From: Chloroflexota bacterium
Lineage (GTDB): Bacteria > Chloroflexota > Anaerolineae > Promineifilales > Promineifilaceae
Assembly: GCA_008501785.1 (NCBI GenBank)
Contig: QQUD01000395.1
Location: forward strand, 1 to 6,379
Reading direction: 5' to 3'
DNA length: 6,379 nucleotides
The notes below the pieces were generated by a model. It did no database searches, was not told where the DNA came from, and worked only from the letters and a program-made list of their open reading frames with translations. This document shows positions 1 to 6,379 of this stretch, piece after piece. Every line of letters starts with the position of its first letter. Positions within the stretch are counted from its first letter, which is position 1. The position numbers and the translations under genes were made by a program.

Positions 1-121
1 TAGACGCGGATTGCTGCGTCACTAGCAGCGCGTCGTCTTTCTAGCAGTCGGTTATGGCATCATTATTGGGGGCACACTTGCGCTGCAAGTCCGTTCTATT
101 TACAGTTTACTATTAACTACA

Positions 122-1300
122 ATGCTCATGACCGCATTTTTTGCCCTGATGAGCTGGCAATCTTATGTGGAACGGGAACGGTATATTGGTAGTTTACGGC
201 CGTTTGTTACCTCCCAACGCCTCTACGAACAGCTTTTAACCCAATCCGTCCCGCAAAATGTAGATTTTGTCTCACCCTTCCATGCCCTCTGCCGCGATGT
301 GCTAGATGCACAGGTTGCCTATCTGGCTGCACTTGGACAATTAGCCCCCCTGGTTGGACCACCACTTGTCTATCCCAGTCAAGAAGATGTGAACCTACCA
401 TCACTTACAAATTTAATTGAACACTTCCAATCACCAGCTACAGTCAACCTTTCCGTTGAACCAGAACAGTATGGAGGGGCAATTTGGGCAATTGCTTTGT
501 GGAGTGAACGTGGCCTGATTGGCGTATTTTTACTCGGTCCCAAAGTAGGCGACAGCCTCTACACGCAAGAAGAGATCGAAATAGCCCGTACCATTGGCGA
601 ACGGCTAATTGACACGCAAGCCAGCGCCGAAATGAGCCAAAAATTGATGGGATTGCAGCGCGAACGGCTGGCCCACAACCAAGTCATCGATCAACAAACT
701 CGCCGCGTGCTCCATGACGACATCTTGCCCAGCCTGCAAACCTCACTCATTGCCTTGAGCAGCGAAACAACCAGCGAAAACAGCGCCGTCAACAACGCCG
801 TCGCCATGATGACCGACGCTCACAAGCAAATTTCCGACTTATTGCACAATATGCCGACCATTTCGGTGCCAGATGTGGCCCGTTTAGGCATTGTCGAGGC
901 GTTTAAGCGTACAGTTAATGAAGAACTGGCCCACGCATTTCAAAAAATCACCTGGCAGATTGCTGAAGGCATCTCTGAAAAAAGCCAAATGATTCCACAT
1001 TTACCGGCCGAAGTATTGTTTTATGCGGCCCGTGAAGTTGTGAGAAACGCAATGAAACATGGTGGGGGGGATTCAGGGGGGGAAATCTCCCTCTGCATCG
1101 ACATCAACTGGCAAGATGGACTGATCATTAAGATAGAAGACGACGGCGTAGGAGTCTCGTCTAACACCTCGACGCGTGGCAGCGGCCAAGGTTTGTCATT
1201 ACACTCCACGATGATGGCTGTGGTGGGTGGCTCTCTTTCAATTGATAGTGTGGTGGGTAGGTATACGGCCGTTACCCTCACACTCCCCACCAACAGCTAA
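122..1300 (+). CDS. GAF-domain sensor histidine kinase, 5' end uncertain or broken
   Basis: Cytoplasmic part of a two-component sensor kinase, which would autophosphorylate on a histidine and pass the phosphate to a response regulator not present here. Residues 1-15 are the end of a membrane helix, followed by the basic/acidic stretch SWQSYVERERY. Residues about 46-165 look like a degenerate GAF sensor domain. The dimerisation/phosphoacceptor helix holds RRVLHDDILPSLQ with H198. The ATPase domain shows the N-box (EVVRNAMKHG, N309), G1 (DDGVG, 340-344) and G2 (GSGQGLSLH, 353-361). ATG 122 is only the first usual start codon. No Shine-Dalgarno sequence precedes it, and the frame upstream stays open back to 26 and reads as membrane helices, with a TAG at 23-25. 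The real protein probably began further upstream, so this may be a pseudogene or an assembly error. The kinase assignment is firm; the ligand is unknown. Confidence 0.88.
   Translation: MLMTAFFALMSWQSYVERERYIGSLRPFVTSQRLYEQLLTQSVPQNVDFVSPFHALCRDVLDAQVAYLAALGQLAPLVGPPLVYPSQEDVNLPSLTNLIEHFQSPATVNLSVEPEQYGGAIWAIALWSERGLIGVFLLGPKVGDSLYTQEEIEIARTIGERLIDTQASAEMSQKLMGLQRERLAHNQVIDQQTRRVLHDDILPSLQTSLIALSSETTSENSAVNNAVAMMTDAHKQISDLLHNMPTISVPDVARLGIVEAFKRTVNEELAHAFQKITWQIAEGISEKSQMIPHLPAEVLFYAAREVVRNAMKHGGGDSGGEISLCIDINWQDGLIIKIEDDGVGVSSNTSTRGSGQGLSLHSTMMAVVGGSLSIDSVVGRYTAVTLTLPTNS
1064..1082 (+). repeat. Two G7 homopolymer tracts in the kinase ATPase domain
   Basis: Two runs of seven G (1064-1070 and 1076-1082), separated by ATTCA, lie just after the N-box of the kinase and encode a glycine-rich linker (HGGGDSGGE). 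Runs of this length are prone to slippage. A single-base change would frameshift the protein before its G1 and G2 boxes. Confidence 0.9.
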
Positions 1301-1362
1301 TCTTATCAACATTAAACATCCCACATATCTGAGGAGCAAGTTATCCTAAATATTGCCTTTAG

Positions 1363-1809
1363 CTATGAAAGTAGCCAATTAACAATAATTATTGGAAATT
1401 TAGCACTTAACAAAAGCATTCCTGTCACAGTTCCCATCAAAAAAATGGGCGTAAAAAAGGAACTGGGAAATAGAAAAGAGAAGAATGTTCCCAGAAAACC
1501 ACCTAAAACAGAGCCTAAAAACATTCCCAACACGATTCCTATACTTGCTCCGGCAAGAATTTTAACACCAACTTTTTCTGACTTATATACCCAGCTAAGG
1601 TAGACACCAACGAGTAAACCGATAAGTGATGCCAAAGGAACAAATCCCCCAAAACTTGGATCCTGCAAAATTCCTGAAACAAACCCTATCGTACTGCCAA
1701 CTATGACAAAATTTAAGACATGTGTGATAGATTGAAAGGTAGTTCGCTGCATTTCTTGTTTCATGCTTGACTCCCGGTTACGGTCATGTCTTCTGACCGT
1801 GCGGGTCAT
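1363..1809 (-). CDS. Small glycine-rich multi-pass membrane protein, function unknown
   Basis: A 148-residue protein I do not recognise. After a charged N-terminus there are about four hydrophobic segments: residues ~30-48, ~54-75, ~83-114 (possibly two short helices) and ~117-146. They are rich in GxxxG-type spacings (for example GASIGIVLGMFLGSVLGG), as in tightly packed transmembrane helices. There is no signal-peptide cleavage site and no catalytic motif. Two starts are possible. The ATG at 1809 has AGGAG 10 bases upstream. The ATG at 1764 (residue 16) has GGGAG 6 bases upstream and would give 133 residues. I keep the longer one, but the extra 15 residues are low-complexity basic/acidic, and a perfect inverted repeat sits inside them, so 1764 is a real alternative. 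The gene is convergent with the kinase and lies 100 bases downstream of the metallohydrolase on the same strand, perhaps in one transcript. The base composition is more AT-rich than its neighbours. Confidence 0.75.
   Translation of the reverse strand: MTRTVRRHDRNRESSMKQEMQRTTFQSITHVLNFVIVGSTIGFVSGILQDPSFGGFVPLASLIGLLVGVYLSWVYKSEKVGVKILAGASIGIVLGMFLGSVLGGFLGTFFSFLFPSSFFTPIFLMGTVTGMLLLSAKFPIIIVNWLLS
1780..1800. promoter_or_regulatory. Perfect 7-bp inverted repeat at the membrane-protein start
   Basis: ACGGTCA (1780-1786) and TGACCGT (1794-1800) are exact reverse complements separated by 7 bases. They lie between the two candidate start codons (1809 and 1764) of the membrane-protein gene. It could be an operator or an mRNA hairpin close to the ribosome binding site at 1771-1775. 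No regulator is identified. Confidence 0.4.
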
Positions 1810-1909
1810 TTATTGCAATCTCCTGCACTTTTCTCAACTGCTTCTTCAACGGTGTTTGTTTTGTTAGTAGTGAAAAGGCTAATCTCCGTGTATCAGGTAA
1901 ATCAGCGTC

Positions 1910-2815
1910 CTATTTCCTTTTTTCGTCCCGCTTCCGCCAATAACGCAAAATCCCATCCACCGACATATACCAAGGATTTGCCATTTCATATTTATGCACA
2001 ACCTCAGCATCCATGCCTGCCGCTTCTGCTCTTGCTCGCTGCCATTGATTAAACAACGTCACCATTTCATCACGAGACACCCCAGCCAACAAATTAGCAC
2101 GAATAAAACCAACCGCATCAATCATCAACTGCTTCAGTGCAATCAATTGAAACGTTGGATTATCCACACGACCAAAATGCGTTGGGTAAATCGCTTTGAA
2201 ATCGCGTTCAAGCAGCCGGTCAATCGTTTTCATCCAAACTTCTAGCTTAAATTCAGGCGGTGGCGCTGGCACATCCACAAAAGGCTGCCCAGATAAACAA
2301 ATGCCCGCTGCATCTCCTGTAAATGCCACATCACCCAACTGATACACATGATGATGCCACGCATGTCCAGGCGTGTTCAGCGCTGTAAACGTCAAGCCAG
2401 CTACATCAATTTGCTGGTTATCTTCAATCGGAACCACATTTTCAGCAGGTGCTTGCAAAAAATCACCCCACAACATGTCCATTTTATCCTCATAAATACG
2501 TCCAGCACTGGTTAACAGCTTTTCTGGGTTGATGAGATGGGGTGCACCCACCACATGTACATAAATCTTGGCTCCCTGCTGTGCCCACCAACCAGCCGCT
2601 CCCGCATGGTCTAGATGAATATGCGTCACCAACACGTGTTTAATATCATTGACCGCAACACCATGCGCTTGAATCCCTGCTTTTAATGTGTCTAGTGTAG
2701 AACCTGGCCCCGTTTCAACCAACACTGGCCCATCTGGTCCCATCACCAGGTAAGCTGCAATAGATTGTGGCACATCTTGAAAATTGAGATCGATTGTATG
2801 AATTTGTACTGTCAT
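1910..2815 (-). CDS. Metallo-beta-lactamase-fold metallohydrolase
   Basis: A 301-residue MBL-fold hydrolase, cytoplasmic (no signal peptide). The metal-binding set is complete: THIHLDHAG (H65, H67, D69, H70), TPGHAWHH (H151), TGDAAG (D168) and YPTHFG (H213). The early strand-turn ETGPGS (34-39) is typical of the glyoxalase II-like branch, which usually has D where this protein has E34. The C-terminal ~70 residues form a helical extension seen in many uncharacterised members, so the substrate cannot be named; a thioester, lactone or phosphoester are all possible for the fold. The ATG at 2815 has no clear Shine-Dalgarno sequence. TATGAT just upstream on the minus strand could be a -10 element for a short-leader transcript, with no convincing -35. 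The upstream gene ends only 22 bases away on the same strand, so co-transcription is likely. Its relation to the replication-like genes on the right is unclear, and it may be ordinary chromosomal cargo. Confidence 0.93.
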   Translation of the reverse strand: MTVQIHTIDLNFQDVPQSIAAYLVMGPDGPVLVETGPGSTLDTLKAGIQAHGVAVNDIKHVLVTHIHLDHAGAAGWWAQQGAKIYVHVVGAPHLINPEKLLTSAGRIYEDKMDMLWGDFLQAPAENVVPIEDNQQIDVAGLTFTALNTPGHAWHHHVYQLGDVAFTGDAAGICLSGQPFVDVPAPPPEFKLEVWMKTIDRLLERDFKAIYPTHFGRVDNPTFQLIALKQLMIDAVGFIRANLLAGVSRDEMVTLFNQWQRARAEAAGMDAEVVHKYEMANPWYMSVDGILRYWRKRDEKRK

Positions 2816-2837
2816 AGCGAAATAGTATCATAAATCC

Positions 2838-4142
2838 CTAGAATGGGGGATCATTTTTTCCGACCCCATCTAAATTTTTTAAATTGTGCCAAATTTGAGC
2901 AGTTCCCTGCTTCGCTTCTGGCCAATAAGCTGCTTCAATCTGATCTCGCTGGATGGTTTTGGCCGCAAAACGGCCGTTTTCACAATACCGCACCCCACAC
3001 TCAGAAAGCTGAGTCCGCTCAGCAGATGTATATTGATCGTTCCCCGTTGTCCCTTGATGCATCAGGTCAGTCAATACACGATTCATTCGCTTCCGCTGGT
3101 TGCTTGTCTGAATACGGTGTGGGCCTGCATAGCTATTCGGTAGCTGCCACGCCAAGTATGATTTGCCAGGAGTGCCAAAACGGCCGTTTCTATCCACCAA
3201 CTTAAAAACAGCAGATCCACGCTGCCACGCCTCATGCTGCAAGGCAGCTTGCGAAAATGCAGCCCCAACAGAAAAATTCCGCTGTGGCCGCACCCGTGCT
3301 GCCTTTTCATACAGCCGTTGAATGCGTGGATTCACGTTTGTGATCTTTTCAATCGTCGATCTTGCAATAGGTTTCATTTGGGTAGCTCCTAGCTGTGGAT
3401 TGGCGCGACTGCTGTGAAAACTCGCATAAAAATGCGCCCGCACCGTGCCGATTCGTTGTGTCATCACCGAAACAGGCAATGCAACCGGTTTAGAAGAGAA
3501 CTTGTGTGTACCTAGCGATACAGCAACCTTGGGCAAAGAACGGAGCCAAATACGGCCGTTTTGCCTTCGCCAGAACACCCCTTCACCCTTCGCCAGCAAA
3601 TTCCGCAGCTGCCGCCAGCCACACACACGTAGCTGCGACTGCTTTTCAGTCAATCGCTTGCGTGCATCAGCCACAGCAACCCACCCACGACCCACCTGGT
3701 CCAGGTGACGCAGCAGCAGCCAGATACGTCCGGCCGCTTCTGATTCTGTGCGCAACATGCTTAATGCAATATCTGGGTAAAGTTGAAGGGTATCGGGTGC
3801 TAGCTTTGTTTCCAGGGCTTTGGGTGCATCACGGATTGGCGAGCCATCAAACTTCACAACCTCTAATGATGGGTGTGAAACGCTCACACTGAGCACCGCC
3901 GAAGTGTCCGTTTTCTGCAAATCAGAAAACGGTTGACTGTGCCATCCTAGGTGTGCTGGCAGTTGCAAAGGGGCAATCGTTGGGGGTGAAAACGCGTTTT
4001 TGGCGGAAACGCCTGCACTGGGCAGAGCCGAAACGGCCGTTTTCTTCCCTTGAATGCTCGATTGATAAGCTTGTCGCCGCCCCAAAAGCCGCTGCTGTGC
4101 AGCCAGCAATTCTGGCGATACGCTCGGTCCCTGCTCGTGCAA
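2838..4142 (-). CDS. Unknown protein with two helix-turn-helix-like segments (replication-initiator-like?)
   Basis: A 434-residue protein whose family I cannot name. Residues 1-125 are low-complexity (S, A, P, Q), probably disordered. Residues ~127-210 look like a winged helix: SMLRTESEAAGRIWLLLRHL, then WRQLRNLLAKGEG, then a beta-wing FWRRQNGRIWLR. A second block has IARSTIEKITNVNPRIQRLYE (259-279), which reads as a helix-turn-helix, followed by a conserved-looking AWQLPNSYAGPHR (331-343) and a basic helix NQRKRMNR (348-355). No catalytic motif is evident. The start is a TTG: a stop codon (TGA) lies six codons upstream in frame, and GAAGAG is spaced 6 bases from the TTG. The gene contains four of the window's six ACGGCCGT palindromes. 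It points away from the intergenic region holding a structured RNA and origin-like repeats, which fits a DNA-binding or replication role. That role is inference from layout only. Long plus-strand open frames inside it are shadows. Confidence 0.7.
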   Translation of the reverse strand: MHEQGPSVSPELLAAQQRLLGRRQAYQSSIQGKKTAVSALPSAGVSAKNAFSPPTIAPLQLPAHLGWHSQPFSDLQKTDTSAVLSVSVSHPSLEVVKFDGSPIRDAPKALETKLAPDTLQLYPDIALSMLRTESEAAGRIWLLLRHLDQVGRGWVAVADARKRLTEKQSQLRVCGWRQLRNLLAKGEGVFWRRQNGRIWLRSLPKVAVSLGTHKFSSKPVALPVSVMTQRIGTVRAHFYASFHSSRANPQLGATQMKPIARSTIEKITNVNPRIQRLYEKAARVRPQRNFSVGAAFSQAALQHEAWQRGSAVFKLVDRNGRFGTPGKSYLAWQLPNSYAGPHRIQTSNQRKRMNRVLTDLMHQGTTGNDQYTSAERTQLSECGVRYCENGRFAAKTIQRDQIEAAYWPEAKQGTAQIWHNLKNLDGVGKNDPPF

Positions 4143-4200
4143 GGCAAACTCTTCTTTTCAGGAAAAAGTAGCACATGAGCAGTCACAGAAAAACGGCTAA

Positions 4201-4221
4201 ACCCGAAGGGTCCCTAAAGGG
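4201..4221. repeat. Two abutting mini-hairpins
   Basis: ACCC-GAA-GGGT (4201-4211) is followed immediately by CCCT-AA-AGGG (4212-4221). Both are 4-bp stems with tiny loops, and the first has a GAA loop, a kind known to make unusually stable DNA mini-hairpins. They lie between the TTG-started minus-strand gene and the -35 element of the RNA promoter, in the presumed leader or promoter region of that gene. Confidence 0.5.
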
Positions 4222-4228
4222 CGAACCA

Positions 4229-4257
4229 TTGACAGTCTGCGCTGCCTATGTTATTCT
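4229..4257 (+). promoter_or_regulatory. Sigma70-type promoter of the structured RNA
   Basis: TTGACA (4229-4234) matches the -35 consensus exactly. A 17-base spacer leads to TATTCT (4252-4257), a 4/6 match to the -10. The expected start is near A4265. No open reading frame follows it before the terminator at 4378-4411, which points to an untranslated RNA. Confidence 0.6.
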
Positions 4258-4264
4258 CTTACCT

Positions 4265-4411
4265 AAGCTAGTGAGCTACCTTGGGGGCAAAAACTCCCCC
4301 TCCCCAATTAAGGGGCCTCTTGTTTACAGTGTTGGCGGCACATAAACAGTAGAAAGGTAACTTGCTGAATTGAACTGAGGCCAGGCATTCAAATGCTTGG
4401 CCTTTTTCTTT
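4265..4411 (+). ncRNA. Predicted small structured RNA with four-way junction, class unknown
   Basis: A stand-alone promoter and a strong terminator bracket about 147 non-coding nt that fold compactly by eye. The closing helix pairs 4266-4268 with 4364-4366, 4270-4272 with 4360-4362, and 4277-4282 (UACCUU) with 4354-4359 (AAGGUA). Inside are three hairpins: GGGGG 4283-4287 with CCCCC 4296-4300, CCCC 4302-4305 with GGGG 4312-4315, and an arm joining UCUUGUUUA (4318-4326) to UAAACA-GU-AGA (4343-4353) with UGU/ACA above. Only three bases are left unpaired at the junction. A terminator hairpin follows. I do not recognise a family: it is not tRNA, tmRNA or SRP RNA, and no 6S-type long rod is seen. 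It lies between the HTH protein gene and the ATPase operon, so a regulatory or copy-control role is possible but unproven. The stretch 4143-4702 has no protein gene. Confidence 0.5.
4378..4411 (+). terminator. Strong rho-independent terminator
   Basis: AGGCCAGGCAT (4378-4388) pairs with ATGCTTGGCCT (4393-4403) over 11 bp with one G-T wobble and a TCAA loop. It is followed by TTTTCTTT (4404-4411). The T-run is on one side only, so it works on plus-strand transcripts: it ends the structured RNA and separates it from the ATPase operon. Confidence 0.85.
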
Positions 4412-4479
4412 AGGAATAAAAGCTATCCACAAGCTTTAACAAAGGTGCAAACATGGACAACCTTTCTCTTTCATTCCTA
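4411..4479. repeat. Three-armed inverted-repeat structure with DnaA-box-like loop
   Basis: TAGGAAT (4411-4417) pairs with ATTCCTA (4473-4479). Inside are AAAGCT (4419-4424) with AGCTTT (4432-4437) and AAAGGT (4441-4446) with ACCTTT (4460-4465), which together make a three-way junction. The outer match extends to 11 of 12 bases if the first inner arm opens. The first arm's loop region contains CTATCCACA (4423-4431), 8 of 9 bases of the DnaA box TTATCCACA. An AT-rich stretch follows. It could be an origin, a recombination site or an RNA element. Confidence 0.45.
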
Positions 4480-4591
4480 ATAGAGTGCTGATATGATCAA
4501 ATCAATACCATTTAACGATCCTTCAGGCTATATTAATAGACATAACCTGTATAACGTGACAGTCTATCAGAATTAATATGGCGTGTCAACG

Positions 4592-4610
4592 AATCTATAG
4601 CATATAGATT
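4592..4610. promoter_or_regulatory. Perfect 8-bp palindromic operator candidate
   Basis: AATCTATA (4592-4599) and TATAGATT (4603-4610) are exact reverse complements with a GCA centre. The right arm touches the -35 of the first ATPase-operon promoter, a typical place for a repressor site. Confidence 0.5.
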
Positions 4611-4658
4611 TGAAATATTGCCTGGTTACTTGTATAATGACGGCATAGATTGAATATT
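4605..4658 (+). repeat. Imperfect direct repeat TAGATT(T)GA(A)ATATT over the promoter
   Basis: TAGATTTGAAATATT (4605-4619) recurs as TAGATTGAATATT (4646-4658), 41 bases apart, about four helical turns. The first copy covers the -35 of promoter P1, and the second covers its expected start and lies just upstream of P2. Ribbon-helix-helix proteins often bind such repeats, and one is encoded in this operon. Autoregulation is inference. Confidence 0.4.
4610..4638 (+). promoter_or_regulatory. Promoter P1 of the ATPase operon
   Basis: TTGAAA (4610-4615, 5/6 match) is followed by a 17-base spacer and a perfect TATAAT (4633-4638). The expected start is A4645, giving a 58-nt leader without a Shine-Dalgarno sequence before ATG 4703. 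It overlaps the palindrome and direct repeat listed separately. Confidence 0.6.
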
Positions 4659-4667
4659 TAACCATTC

Positions 4668-4696
4668 TTGACAATAGAATCATACTTATATACGAT
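4668..4696 (+). promoter_or_regulatory. Promoter P2 of the ATPase operon, predicted leaderless
   Basis: A perfect TTGACA (4668-4673), a 17-base spacer and TACGAT (4691-4696, 4/6) place +1 at 4703, exactly the A of the ATPase ATG. No ribosome binding site lies upstream of that ATG, which fits a leaderless mRNA. Confidence 0.5.
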
Positions 4697-4702
4697 AATG
4701 TC

Positions 4703-5590
4703 ATGGCAATTGGAAACCAGTTAGACTTAGAGTTCGAACAATTCTCACCCGATTGGGATCGTTTAGGGGTTGTTGTACCTCCCTTCACCATCGAAGCTGA
4801 TCCGCGCTTCATGTATCTGTCCACAGAAACACGTCGAGCGCTGTCCAAAGTAAGCTATATGGTAGAAGCAGGCCAAGGTGCTTCCGTCATTGTTGGCGAA
4901 GTTGGCACTGGCAAAACAACGCTGGCCTCCTGGTTCCACAGTAGGTACCAGCGCCGCCCAGACTTCATCGCCGCCAAAATAGACGAGTCACCCAAAAAGA
5001 GCGGCCTTCTATTACTACGTCGCATTGCTGCCGAGTTCGGCATTCGAACTCGACGCGCCACAGAAGATCAGCTAAACGAGTTTCGCGCTCTATTAGTTGA
5101 ACAAAGTAGCAACGGCATACTCCCCCTCATTATTATTGATGAAGCACATGAGTTAAGCCCTGAGCAGTTTGTTGAACTGCGACGCCTGCTAAACTTCCGT
5201 GACCCGCGTGGTGGCAAAGCATTTCAATTAGTATTGCTAGGCCGCCCCGAGCTAGACATCAACCTGCGAGAAGTCCCAGACTTCAATGACAGGGTAGCAA
5301 CACGCTCTTCCTTAGATCCCCTCACCCCCGAAGATACAAACTCTTTGATTGAATACCGATTGCTGGCCGCTGGTCGTGACTCAAAACAATCATCCATCTT
5401 CACCGAAGATGCCGTCTTACCCATTTGGCGAGAAACAAAAGGATATCCGCGAAGCATTTGCTTGTTGTGTTTACATCTATGCCTGGAACTGTTAGCAACA
5501 AATGGTGATGAAATCGATGCTGATTTCGTCACAAAATTCCTGGAAGACCATCACGATTACCGACAAGCTGGTTTAAAGCGGTTTGAATGA
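4703..5590 (+). CDS. ExeA/TnsC-like AAA+ ATPase
   Basis: A 295-residue P-loop ATPase, cytoplasmic and likely DNA-associated. Motifs in order: the ADPRFMYLS entry typical of ExeA-like proteins (32-40), Walker A GEVGTGKT (65-72), Walker B LIIIDEAHEL (142-151, D146 and E147), sensor-1-like LLGRPEL (178-184), and FNDRVATRSSLDPLTPED (194-211), where R197 or R201 may act in trans. A helical lid region (KGYPRSICLLCLHLC) follows. The protein ends there and lacks the peptidoglycan-binding tail of type II secretion ExeA. This shorter form is common in mobile elements, where such ATPases (TnsC, TniB and MuB types) partner a DDE transposase, but none is present here. The partner is instead the AT-hook/RHH protein, whose ATG overlaps this stop codon (ATGA). 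The start is supported by a leaderless-type promoter and the palindromic region just upstream. The ATPase fold is firm; the process it serves is open. Confidence 0.9.
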   Translation: MAIGNQLDLEFEQFSPDWDRLGVVVPPFTIEADPRFMYLSTETRRALSKVSYMVEAGQGASVIVGEVGTGKTTLASWFHSRYQRRPDFIAAKIDESPKKSGLLLLRRIAAEFGIRTRRATEDQLNEFRALLVEQSSNGILPLIIIDEAHELSPEQFVELRRLLNFRDPRGGKAFQLVLLGRPELDINLREVPDFNDRVATRSSLDPLTPEDTNSLIEYRLLAAGRDSKQSSIFTEDAVLPIWRETKGYPRSICLLCLHLCLELLATNGDEIDADFVTKFLEDHHDYRQAGLKRFE

Positions 5591-6147
5591 GCGATAAAGA
5601 AAAGACTCCACCCCCAAGCACCTTGGCAGCCTTGCTCAAGGAAAAACCTAAACGCGGTCGTCCTCCCCATGCTGTCAGCCGCCAAAACGTATATGTAGCC
5701 CTTACTCAAAATCAAAAAGCTCAAATAAAGGAACTTGCCACCAAATTGCCAAAAGGCATTGTGCGTGCAGACGTTCCTGATTTAGCCATTACAATACTGT
5801 CGGCACGCATGGAAGCATTGCGACGTGCTGTATCAGGCCGCGATAGAGAAATCCCCGAAGGTATCACTGATCTAGAATCTTTGTACCTTCTTTGGGACAT
5901 CCCCATACCAAATGATAAAGATGTACCGCGAAAATGGACATCAGTGCGGCTCTCTCCACAGCCTGCAATTGAGTTGGGTCGTGTACAAGGAATGCTGTAT
6001 GCTGTTTTTAGCGCCACTCGCAGTGAGGCATTTAGTCTAGGGTTAGACTTATTAGATGAGTTCATTAAAGGTGTTTTGCCCCAATTAGAAATTGAAGCCT
6101 GTGATTTGGCCGCTTTTCGTCAAATCATCATCGGCAATTATTTGTGA
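5587..6147 (+). CDS. AT-hook protein with two ribbon-helix-helix-like repeats
   Basis: A 186-residue putative DNA-binding protein, no exact family recognised. Residues 21-27 are PKRGRPP, a classical AT-hook (GRP core) that contacts the minor groove of AT-rich DNA. Two similar blocks follow, each a short beta strand, helix, turn and helix. The first is NVYVALTQNQKAQIKELA with DLAITILSARMEALR (34-79); the second is WTSVRLSPQPAIELGRV with SEAFSLGLDLLDEFI (117-160). This matches a tandem (pseudo-dimeric) ribbon-helix-helix plan. The linker has acidic and proline-rich turns. The ATG lies within the ATPase stop region (4-base overlap), with no good ribosome binding site, so translation is probably coupled and the two proteins likely act together. 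It may bind the repeats at 4592-4658 and repress its own operon, or act as the DNA-binding adaptor for the ATPase, much as RHH adaptors do in plasmid partition. The domain call is by eye and moderately sure. Confidence 0.65.
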   Translation: MSDKEKTPPPSTLAALLKEKPKRGRPPHAVSRQNVYVALTQNQKAQIKELATKLPKGIVRADVPDLAITILSARMEALRRAVSGRDREIPEGITDLESLYLLWDIPIPNDKDVPRKWTSVRLSPQPAIELGRVQGMLYAVFSATRSEAFSLGLDLLDEFIKGVLPQLEIEACDLAAFRQIIIGNYL

Positions 6148-6379
6148 GCTACTCATAAATAATTGCCCTGCACATGGCAAGGTGCTTTTACAAACACCAT
6201 TTTCTAGGATCAGACCCCCCAAATCAGAATCAAATGCCCCGTCATACAAGATGCCGAAACATTTAGCGGCGGATTCTCCTTGTACATTGCACCCGCATTT
6301 GTCAACGATGCCATCCAGAAAATCGAAATCAGGCAGGAATAACCAGCCAAACGAGGAGATATTCAAGCGAAAACAACAC
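6148..6379. other. Right-edge region, coding content unresolved
   Basis: No gene can be called with confidence here. A minus-strand frame is open from the window edge to 6085 (possible TTG start at 6366; it contains LFLPDFDFLDGIV) but would overlap the end of the upstream gene by 63 bases. A plus-strand frame is open from 6089 to the edge, with candidate starts GTG 6182, ATG 6251 and ATG 6308; it uses AGG and AGA codons that are rare elsewhere in the window. TTGCC (6163-6167) and GGCAA (6176-6180) form a weak hairpin with TTTT at 6186-6189, a poor terminator candidate for the ATPase operon. Confidence 0.3.

Follow-up and report, generated by a model that had tools for sequence, protein, structure and literature searches.

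The 6,379-nucleotide stretch of Chloroflexota DNA described here (contig QQUD01000395.1, positions 1 to 6,379; hereafter the window) carries a structured RNA between the gene of a 434-amino-acid (434-aa) helix-turn-helix (HTH) protein and an ATPase gene. Sequence comparison places it in a new family of four-way-junction RNAs of approximately 100 nt (approximately 150 nt including the terminator), which have a near-consensus promoter and lie opposite to and immediately upstream of genes encoding replication-initiator-like proteins. The RNA is bound by position and strand to these genes, on which it probably acts as an antisense brake, and possibly as a protein-bound RNA. An initial annotation of the window had proposed a structured RNA possessing a promoter and a terminator of its own, and such an uncatalogued family was confirmed by comparison of related sequences.

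The RNA unit and the covariation of its helices

The RNA unit in the window consists of the following elements:

4229..4257, plus strand: RNA promoter, TTGACA (4229-4234), 17 nt, TATTCT (4252-4257), with extended TG
4264..4411, plus strand: the RNA, with a predicted start approximately 7 nt past the -10 box and its end in the T run of the terminator
4271-4280 / 4356-4365, plus strand: helix P1, which closes the four-way junction
4283-4287 / 4296-4300, plus strand: helix P2, with an A-rich loop
4302-4305 / 4312-4315, plus strand: helix P3, with an AAUUAA loop
4317..4352, plus strand: P4, with the apical loop UUGGCGG at 4332-4338
4377..4411, plus strand: intrinsic terminator, 12 pairs (6 G-C) at 4377-4404, followed by TTTCTTT

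Both annotated transcription signals were recovered, the promoter with a TG in the extended position and the terminator with 12 counted pairs and a T-rich tail. The minimum free energy fold of positions 4265-4411 (-57.6 kcal/mol, z -3.82; 1 of 200 shuffled sequences equally good) comprises P1 enclosing three arms, followed by the terminator. A single unpaired base is found at each of P2/P3, P3/P4, and P4/P1; the tight junction with three unpaired bases that had been claimed holds in the window but not in relatives, in which up to approximately 8 unpaired bases occur between P4 and P1.

Related loci were collected by a search with the ATPase, which yielded 37 loci, including three short weak matches in other phyla that were excluded (L035-L037). 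The 34 retained window-type loci belong to metagenome-assembled genomes labelled Chloroflexi, Anaerolineae, Promineifilum, Ardenticatenia/-ceae, and similar. Promoter, core, and terminator are present in 33 of these 34 loci, between the 434-aa and ATPase genes as the initial annotation had placed them, while L022 ends at the contig end before the full unit. Several window-type sequences are near-duplicates (L002/L018; L005/L006/L007/L033; L009/L013/L015; L017/L034), and the automatically assigned terminator stem was wrong in L005, L006, L007, L020, and L033, for which the ends were corrected by eye for the alignment. With 5 promoter-like sites in the window versus 8.8 expected, the RNA promoter alone is no better than chance; a family form near TTGACA-N11-CTRTGYTATNCT is found in 34/34 window-type sequences, as well as in paralogous units.

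A covariance search of homologous loci had been suggested with the annotation, and compensatory changes were indeed found in the helices. The covariance model, which was built from ten loci, recovers all 34 members; its match in the window (R1) spans 4269-4367 (76.3 bits), and the core of L032 is the most divergent and matches weakly (16.3 bits, E 0.28). Double changes occur in 20 of 28 pairs, giving 79 double-change cells versus 19 after shuffling (0 of 500 shuffles as high, in statistics that take no account of relatedness), and this signal collapses when the partners are slid by 1-3 columns. Pairs with double changes are distributed over P1 (9/10), P4 (8/9), P3 (2/4), and P2 (1/5), counts that lean towards the model because the structure guided the fitting of alignments A6, A8, and A9. 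An alignment that includes paralogs gave 147 double-change cells versus 39, and 41 later matches gave 246 versus 90; of these 41, L154 comes from the same place as L010, and L157 and L158 probably arose by chance. Read on the plus strand, P1 contains 45 G-U cells versus 8 A-C cells, which indicates that the plus strand is the folded transcript. P2 displays the opposite trend (6 G-U versus 20 A-C cells), perhaps because GGAG is able to pair with the neighbouring CUCC. Sequence conservation within the family is highest in P2 and P3 (4283..4315), and the P4 loop UUGGCGG is kept in 30/34 window-type sequences and differs in most paralogs.

In agreement with the annotation of an RNA outside the known classes, no Rfam family was reached: a scan of the window with Rfam 15 (4227 families) yielded only a miRNA match of 21.4 bits versus a gathering score of 70, and a scan of four paralogous loci yielded none up to E 0.5. 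A literature search, mostly outside subscription journals, found no account of this RNA. Chloroflexi-1 RNA (RF01698), presented as a structured-RNA candidate of Chloroflexota in a table of PMC2864571, shares the phylum but was unmatched in the Rfam scan of the window and the four paralogous loci.

Linkage of the RNA to the initiator-like gene

The RNA is flanked by two candidate partner genes:

2838..4142, minus strand: 434-aa protein, predicted two-winged-helix, initiator-like, TTG start; the RNA-linked gene
4703..5590, plus strand: AAA+ ATPase (AAA_22), the neighbour in window-type loci

The initial annotation had placed the RNA next to an operon formed by the ExeA-like ATPase and a ribbon-helix-helix (RHH) protein; companionship with this operon is contradicted by RNA copies elsewhere. 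Whole-genome searches of 11 genomes detected further RNA copies, outside the window-type place, in 7; in the 11 small loci around those copies (L047-L057), a paralog of the 434-aa gene (30-40% identical) was found in 8 and the ATPase in 0. Conversely, among 38 loci of the 434-aa-family gene, drawn from order-wide protein hits and mostly representing copies away from the window-type place, the ATPase was found within the stretch examined in three, all window-type, versus the RNA in 33 at E<=1 (two of these truncated by the sequence end). Among these 33 are nine of the 22 long hits of the family for which the order-wide survey had detected no RNA at E<=0.01. The ATPase was therefore ruled out as the RNA's partner.

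Of the 56 genomes of the order of genome G002, 43 encode the protein and 40 carry the RNA, which was searched for with stricter filters at which weak matches are lost; in no genome does the RNA occur without the protein. Of 83 RNA hits, some of which served in building the covariance model, 81 are positioned on the 5' side of a 434-aa-family gene at a distance of up to 3 kb, all on the opposite strand and with a median gap of 145 nt between gene and profile match. One of the two exceptions is located on a 3.5-kb contig carrying the window-type ATPase gene. The other (L185:2968-3044, corresponding to G431:C7:48167-48243, minus strand) lies upstream of and opposite to the gene of a 403-aa DnaA_N-domain protein; a search for relatives of this protein returned mostly ordinary DnaA, and the pairing stays a single case. 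Among the long hits of the 434-aa family, 67/89 have an RNA at E<=0.01; the protein hits across the order include fragments, and whole and partial hits of the family number up to 14-15 per genome. Taken together at the sequence level, the partner of the RNA is the 434-aa gene and not the ATPase.

The 434-aa protein has a predicted two-winged-helix core, a fold that suggests an initiator function. The structure matches titled 'Isoreticular co-crystal' do not all name RepE, and the row naming RepE was used. RepE of mini-F, pi of R6K, and RctB of Vibrio chromosome II are two-winged-helix initiators, to which the predicted core would correspond. No Pfam Rep_3 or other initiator family was found for the 2838-4142 product, nor in a scan of nine further proteins. 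DnaA is present in 13/13 genomes, which rules out its replacement by the initiator-like protein.

The remaining features of the window are:

122-1300: histidine-kinase-like protein gene
1910-2815, minus strand: metallo-beta-lactamase-fold protein gene
4668..4696, plus strand: TTGACA-17-TACGAT, a promoter that serves the ATPase gene separately
5587..6147, plus strand: 186-aa basic protein, with a very weak, Arc-like phrog_3431 match (E 0.026)

Of the 34 loci, many of which are truncated at contig ends, 32 contain the 434-aa gene, 32 the 186-aa gene, 27 that of the metallo-beta-lactamase, and 17 that of the kinase. Sites similar to the ATPase promoter occur in many relatives. The ATPase resembles transposition ATPases (phrog_296; TnsC V-K weakly, E 1.8e-8) and also matches the PEP-CTERM ATPase model TIGR03015, below that model's cut-off. 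An extra open reading frame of approximately 120 aa separates the ATPase and 186-aa genes in L022 (1183-1551) and L024 (5897-6256). In L009 the locus is followed (7038-10852) by an rRNA operon with the full 16S gene, two tRNAs, and the first part of a 23S gene, and such an operon may explain why several other contigs end soon after the 186-aa gene. On the basis of the conserved neighbour genes and the rRNA operon beside the L009 locus, the window-type locus is taken as a fixed chromosomal locus. The HTH (434-aa) and 186-aa proteins had no PADLOC match. As regards a possible RNA of a CRISPR-associated transposon (V-K), a direct-repeat search of the window detected no CRISPR-like array, and no search for Cas or TnsB extended further out.

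Opposing promoter and possible modes of action

A second conserved block, located between the RNA and the ATPase gene, contains an opposing promoter and a palindrome region:

4561..4589, minus strand: opposing promoter, TTGACA-17-TAGACT with extended TG, aimed through the RNA at 2838-4142
4593..4609: palindrome ATCTATAGCATATAGAT, a candidate operator just upstream of the opposing promoter's -35

The opposing minus-strand promoter (TAGACT-like -10, 17 nt) is present in 34/34 window-type sequences, and the palindrome, with up to 3 mismatches allowed, in 32/35 sequences including L022 (not in L016, L019, and L031). Within the 160 bp next to the RNA promoter, towards the gene, only 2/24 window-type and 0/35 paralogous loci contain a promoter scoring better than chance (p<=0.1, 30 shuffles); of the 34 window-type sequences, the shuffle control covered 24, each of them block-shuffled 30 times. 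The few promoters on the gene side and the opposing promoter beyond the RNA argue that transcription of the gene probably begins beyond the RNA, so that the mRNA would include the RNA's complement. The RNA is free-standing, as annotated, with respect to its transcription unit, but it is probably antisense to the leader of the gene and not an independent small RNA (sRNA).

Our preferred explanation, with chances about even, is that the RNA is a countertranscript lowering expression of the adjacent initiator-like gene. The transcripts, their pairing, the sign of the effect, the protein's initiator role, and the ligand at the palindrome are all inferred. The gene's mRNA, initiated from 4561-4589 (minus strand), would have a leader of approximately 400 nt containing the complement of the RNA; the RNA would bind this leader, with first contact via the exposed P4 loop UUGGCGG, and pairing would lead to an early end of transcription or to a translation block. 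A DNA-binding protein on the palindrome by the opposing promoter could provide a second brake, and the 186-aa protein is our guess for this ligand. Read on the minus strand, P3 together with the P2 loop (4315-4297) resembles a hairpin followed by T's; as several relatives have only a short T run, its use as an attenuation site was left as only an idea.

Several observations weigh against the countertranscript proposal. In paralogous loci the opposing promoter was found in 2/35, no more than expected by chance. The P4 loop and the P2/P3 strands are conserved beyond what cis-antisense pairing needs, RNA units are frequently arranged in tandem (up to four in L058), and terminators of paralogous units (10/41) repeat the P4 loop. 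YUNR-type loops are not enriched. Neither is the partner sequence of an IncI-type pseudoknot, in which the target loop pairs with a site preceding the start codon; it was sought over 250 bp ahead of the RNA promoter in 34 sequences (mean run 4.97 versus 4.73 shuffled), and pseudoknot control of that type was rejected. Finally, no iteron-like direct repeats were found in the window, only ACGGCCGT palindromes. This interspersed palindrome, which we take to be reminiscent of cyanobacterial HIP1 repeats, occurs in 6 copies in 6.4 kb versus 0.07 expected from shuffles, and also in L007; CGGCCG cores lie at window positions 197, 1005, 1266, 2971, 3181, 3553, 3731, and 4034.

The strict conservation of the loop and of P2/P3, the paralogs without opposing promoter, the tandem units, and the loop repeats favour a bound partner, at least an additional one. 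Specifically, the winged-helix protein or another factor might bind the P4 hairpin and P2/P3, with the RNA titrating, activating, or guiding this factor and its opposite-strand position reflecting a mere divergent gene pair, an explanation that we hold to be tentative and somewhat unlikely. The retained UUGGCGG loop of window-type sequences, the near-invariant P2/P3 sequence, the variation of P4 loops between paralogs, the tandem copies, and the strict pairing of RNA and gene are all consistent with it. Moreover, a stretch of 6 nt or longer from the P4 loop recurs in the terminator hairpin of the same unit in 10/41 paralogous units versus 5.3% between units, as expected from two binding sites, with terminator stems that are doubtful in some paralogs (e.g., L131, L142, L143, and L146). 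In window-type units (a group that here also includes L136, L152, L153, L154, and L156, and in which the stems of L005, L006, L007, and L033 are still wrong), the repeat is near the between-unit rate (6/39 versus 10.4%). Protein binding also leaves the opposing promoter in all window-type sequences unexplained, family scans of the proteins recognised no RNA-binding domain, and one RNA copy pairs with the DnaA_N protein outside the 434-aa family. Terminators repeating their own P4 hairpin loop over 12-13 nt were observed in L060, L133, L153, L155, and L058. It is more doubtful still that the RNA is a bound partner directly regulating initiator-like proteins throughout the lineage, with a private P4-loop code per unit, sometimes repeated in the terminator, with tandem arrays, and with one DnaA_N-paired member.

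Tandem arrays of 2-4 RNA units were found in L058 (9536-11200), L065 (9473-10250), L059, L062, L063, L064, L121, L122, L127, L141, and L155; some units are degenerate, and many have their own recognisable promoter and terminator. A 493-499-aa AAA ATPase is encoded on the far side of the RNA in L059 (6675-8156), L061 (3786-5285), L063 (8140-9621), L064 (7552-9039), and L065 (10356-11837); scans of three of these five copies (L059, L063, and L065) recognised ATPase_2 (PF01637) and DUF234 (PF03008) in all three, and relatives occur in 10/38 further loci. A TraG/VirB4-type P-loop protein (PF19044) is encoded near the array in L058 (13803-15956), and the L064 protein (2324-4507) was judged similar from its first residues only; such proteins near RNA arrays suggest conjugative-type elements.

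The TraG/VirB4-type ATPase gene of L058, relatives of the similar-looking L064 protein near L121, L122, and L142, and the adjoining initiator-like gene would also fit palindromes or hairpins that function as DNA, in a replication origin or recombination site that is incidentally transcribed. This explanation appears very improbable, as the G-U excess in P1 favours a plus-strand RNA, the structure is framed by a conserved promoter and terminator, and no iterons were found in the window. A trans-acting sRNA that merely travels with the gene and reaches mRNA targets elsewhere through a UUGGCGG or C-rich seed would account for the RNA's own promoter and terminator and for the loop kept in 30/34 window-type sequences. 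It is nevertheless improbable in view of the 81/83 hits beside the gene in constant orientation and the different loops of most paralogs; targets were not sought genome-wide, and the sole candidate target tried, CCGCCAA in the ATPase mRNA, was ruled out because it changes at synonymous sites.

Relation to known systems and significance

The copy-control or regulatory role guessed in the initial annotation fits these findings, apart from its tie to the ATPase/RHH operon. Like antisense copy-control RNAs, the RNA has its own promoter and terminator and structured loops, and lies opposite to and upstream of an initiator-like gene (81/83). Those RNAs reside on autonomously replicating plasmids; the window-type locus lies among conserved genes and had no match in PLSDB. 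Because plasmid carriage is lacking, the RNA is not classed as a plasmid copy-control member, but only as working alike. The 434-aa family was not detected in PLSDB, INPHARED, or IMG/VR at the sensitivity used, nor was the ATPase in IMG/VR.

For pIP501 (Inc18), PMC4981023 describes RNAIII, a 136-nt antisense RNA with its own promoter that acts by attenuation of the repR leader, a rep leader of 329 bp, and an inverted-repeat operator for CopR, a small DNA-binding repressor, upstream of the -35 of the rep promoter. The window shares the opposing promoter, the upstream operator-like palindrome, the predicted long leader, and the antisense-placed RNA (approximately 140 nt there, approximately 150 nt here). 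In contrast, RNAIII is plasmid-borne with proven attenuation, whereas here the locus is chromosomal and the pairing is proposed, and the closed four-way junction and the tandem copies in some paralogous loci are particular to the present family. Most such antisense RNAs start pairing through loops (PMC4485353; PMC10724649), and in the I-complex plasmids ColIb-P9, IncB/O, and IncK, Inc RNA/RNAI recognises the initiator mRNA by a loop (PMC10724649). The present locus resembles this system in its proposed loop-borne recognition and in a UUGGCG loop motif. It differs in that the UUGGCG loop motif reportedly lies in the target RNA of ColIb-P9, by the title of Asano, Niimi and Yokoyama 1998, and in that RNAI is 60-61 nt long. 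In the origins of cluster A mycobacteriophage prophages, a noncoding RNA is likewise tied to replication of a resident element; there, according to PMC7157519, the origins are RNA-based, with an RNA that is required for replication and no repA gene, unlike here.

A scan of 400 genomes of the phylum detected the RNA at E<=0.01 in 9, three of which (G002, G155, and G383, all in the same order) have E below 1e-8, the other six ranging from 3e-4 to 0.01. Two places of the six weak matches were read by eye (L157 in G135 and L158 in G299); they have neither the family promoter and terminator nor the gene, and spread beyond the order was rejected. The protein occurs in 5/400 of these genomes, including two distant relatives outside the order (G164 and G220) with only sub-threshold HTH model matches.

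These data describe an uncatalogued RNA family with clear covariation in 40/56 genomes of one order, in which, to our knowledge, RNA regulation has hardly been studied, and link it to an unnamed family of initiator-like proteins. If the RNA is a bound partner of these proteins, the identity and dosage of resident replicon-like elements fixed in the chromosome would be governed by a system based on RNA. If it is an antisense regulator, copy-control logic familiar from plasmids would be a fixed chromosomal feature throughout an order, and the tandem arrays would provide natural RNA regulators that are possibly orthogonal to one another.
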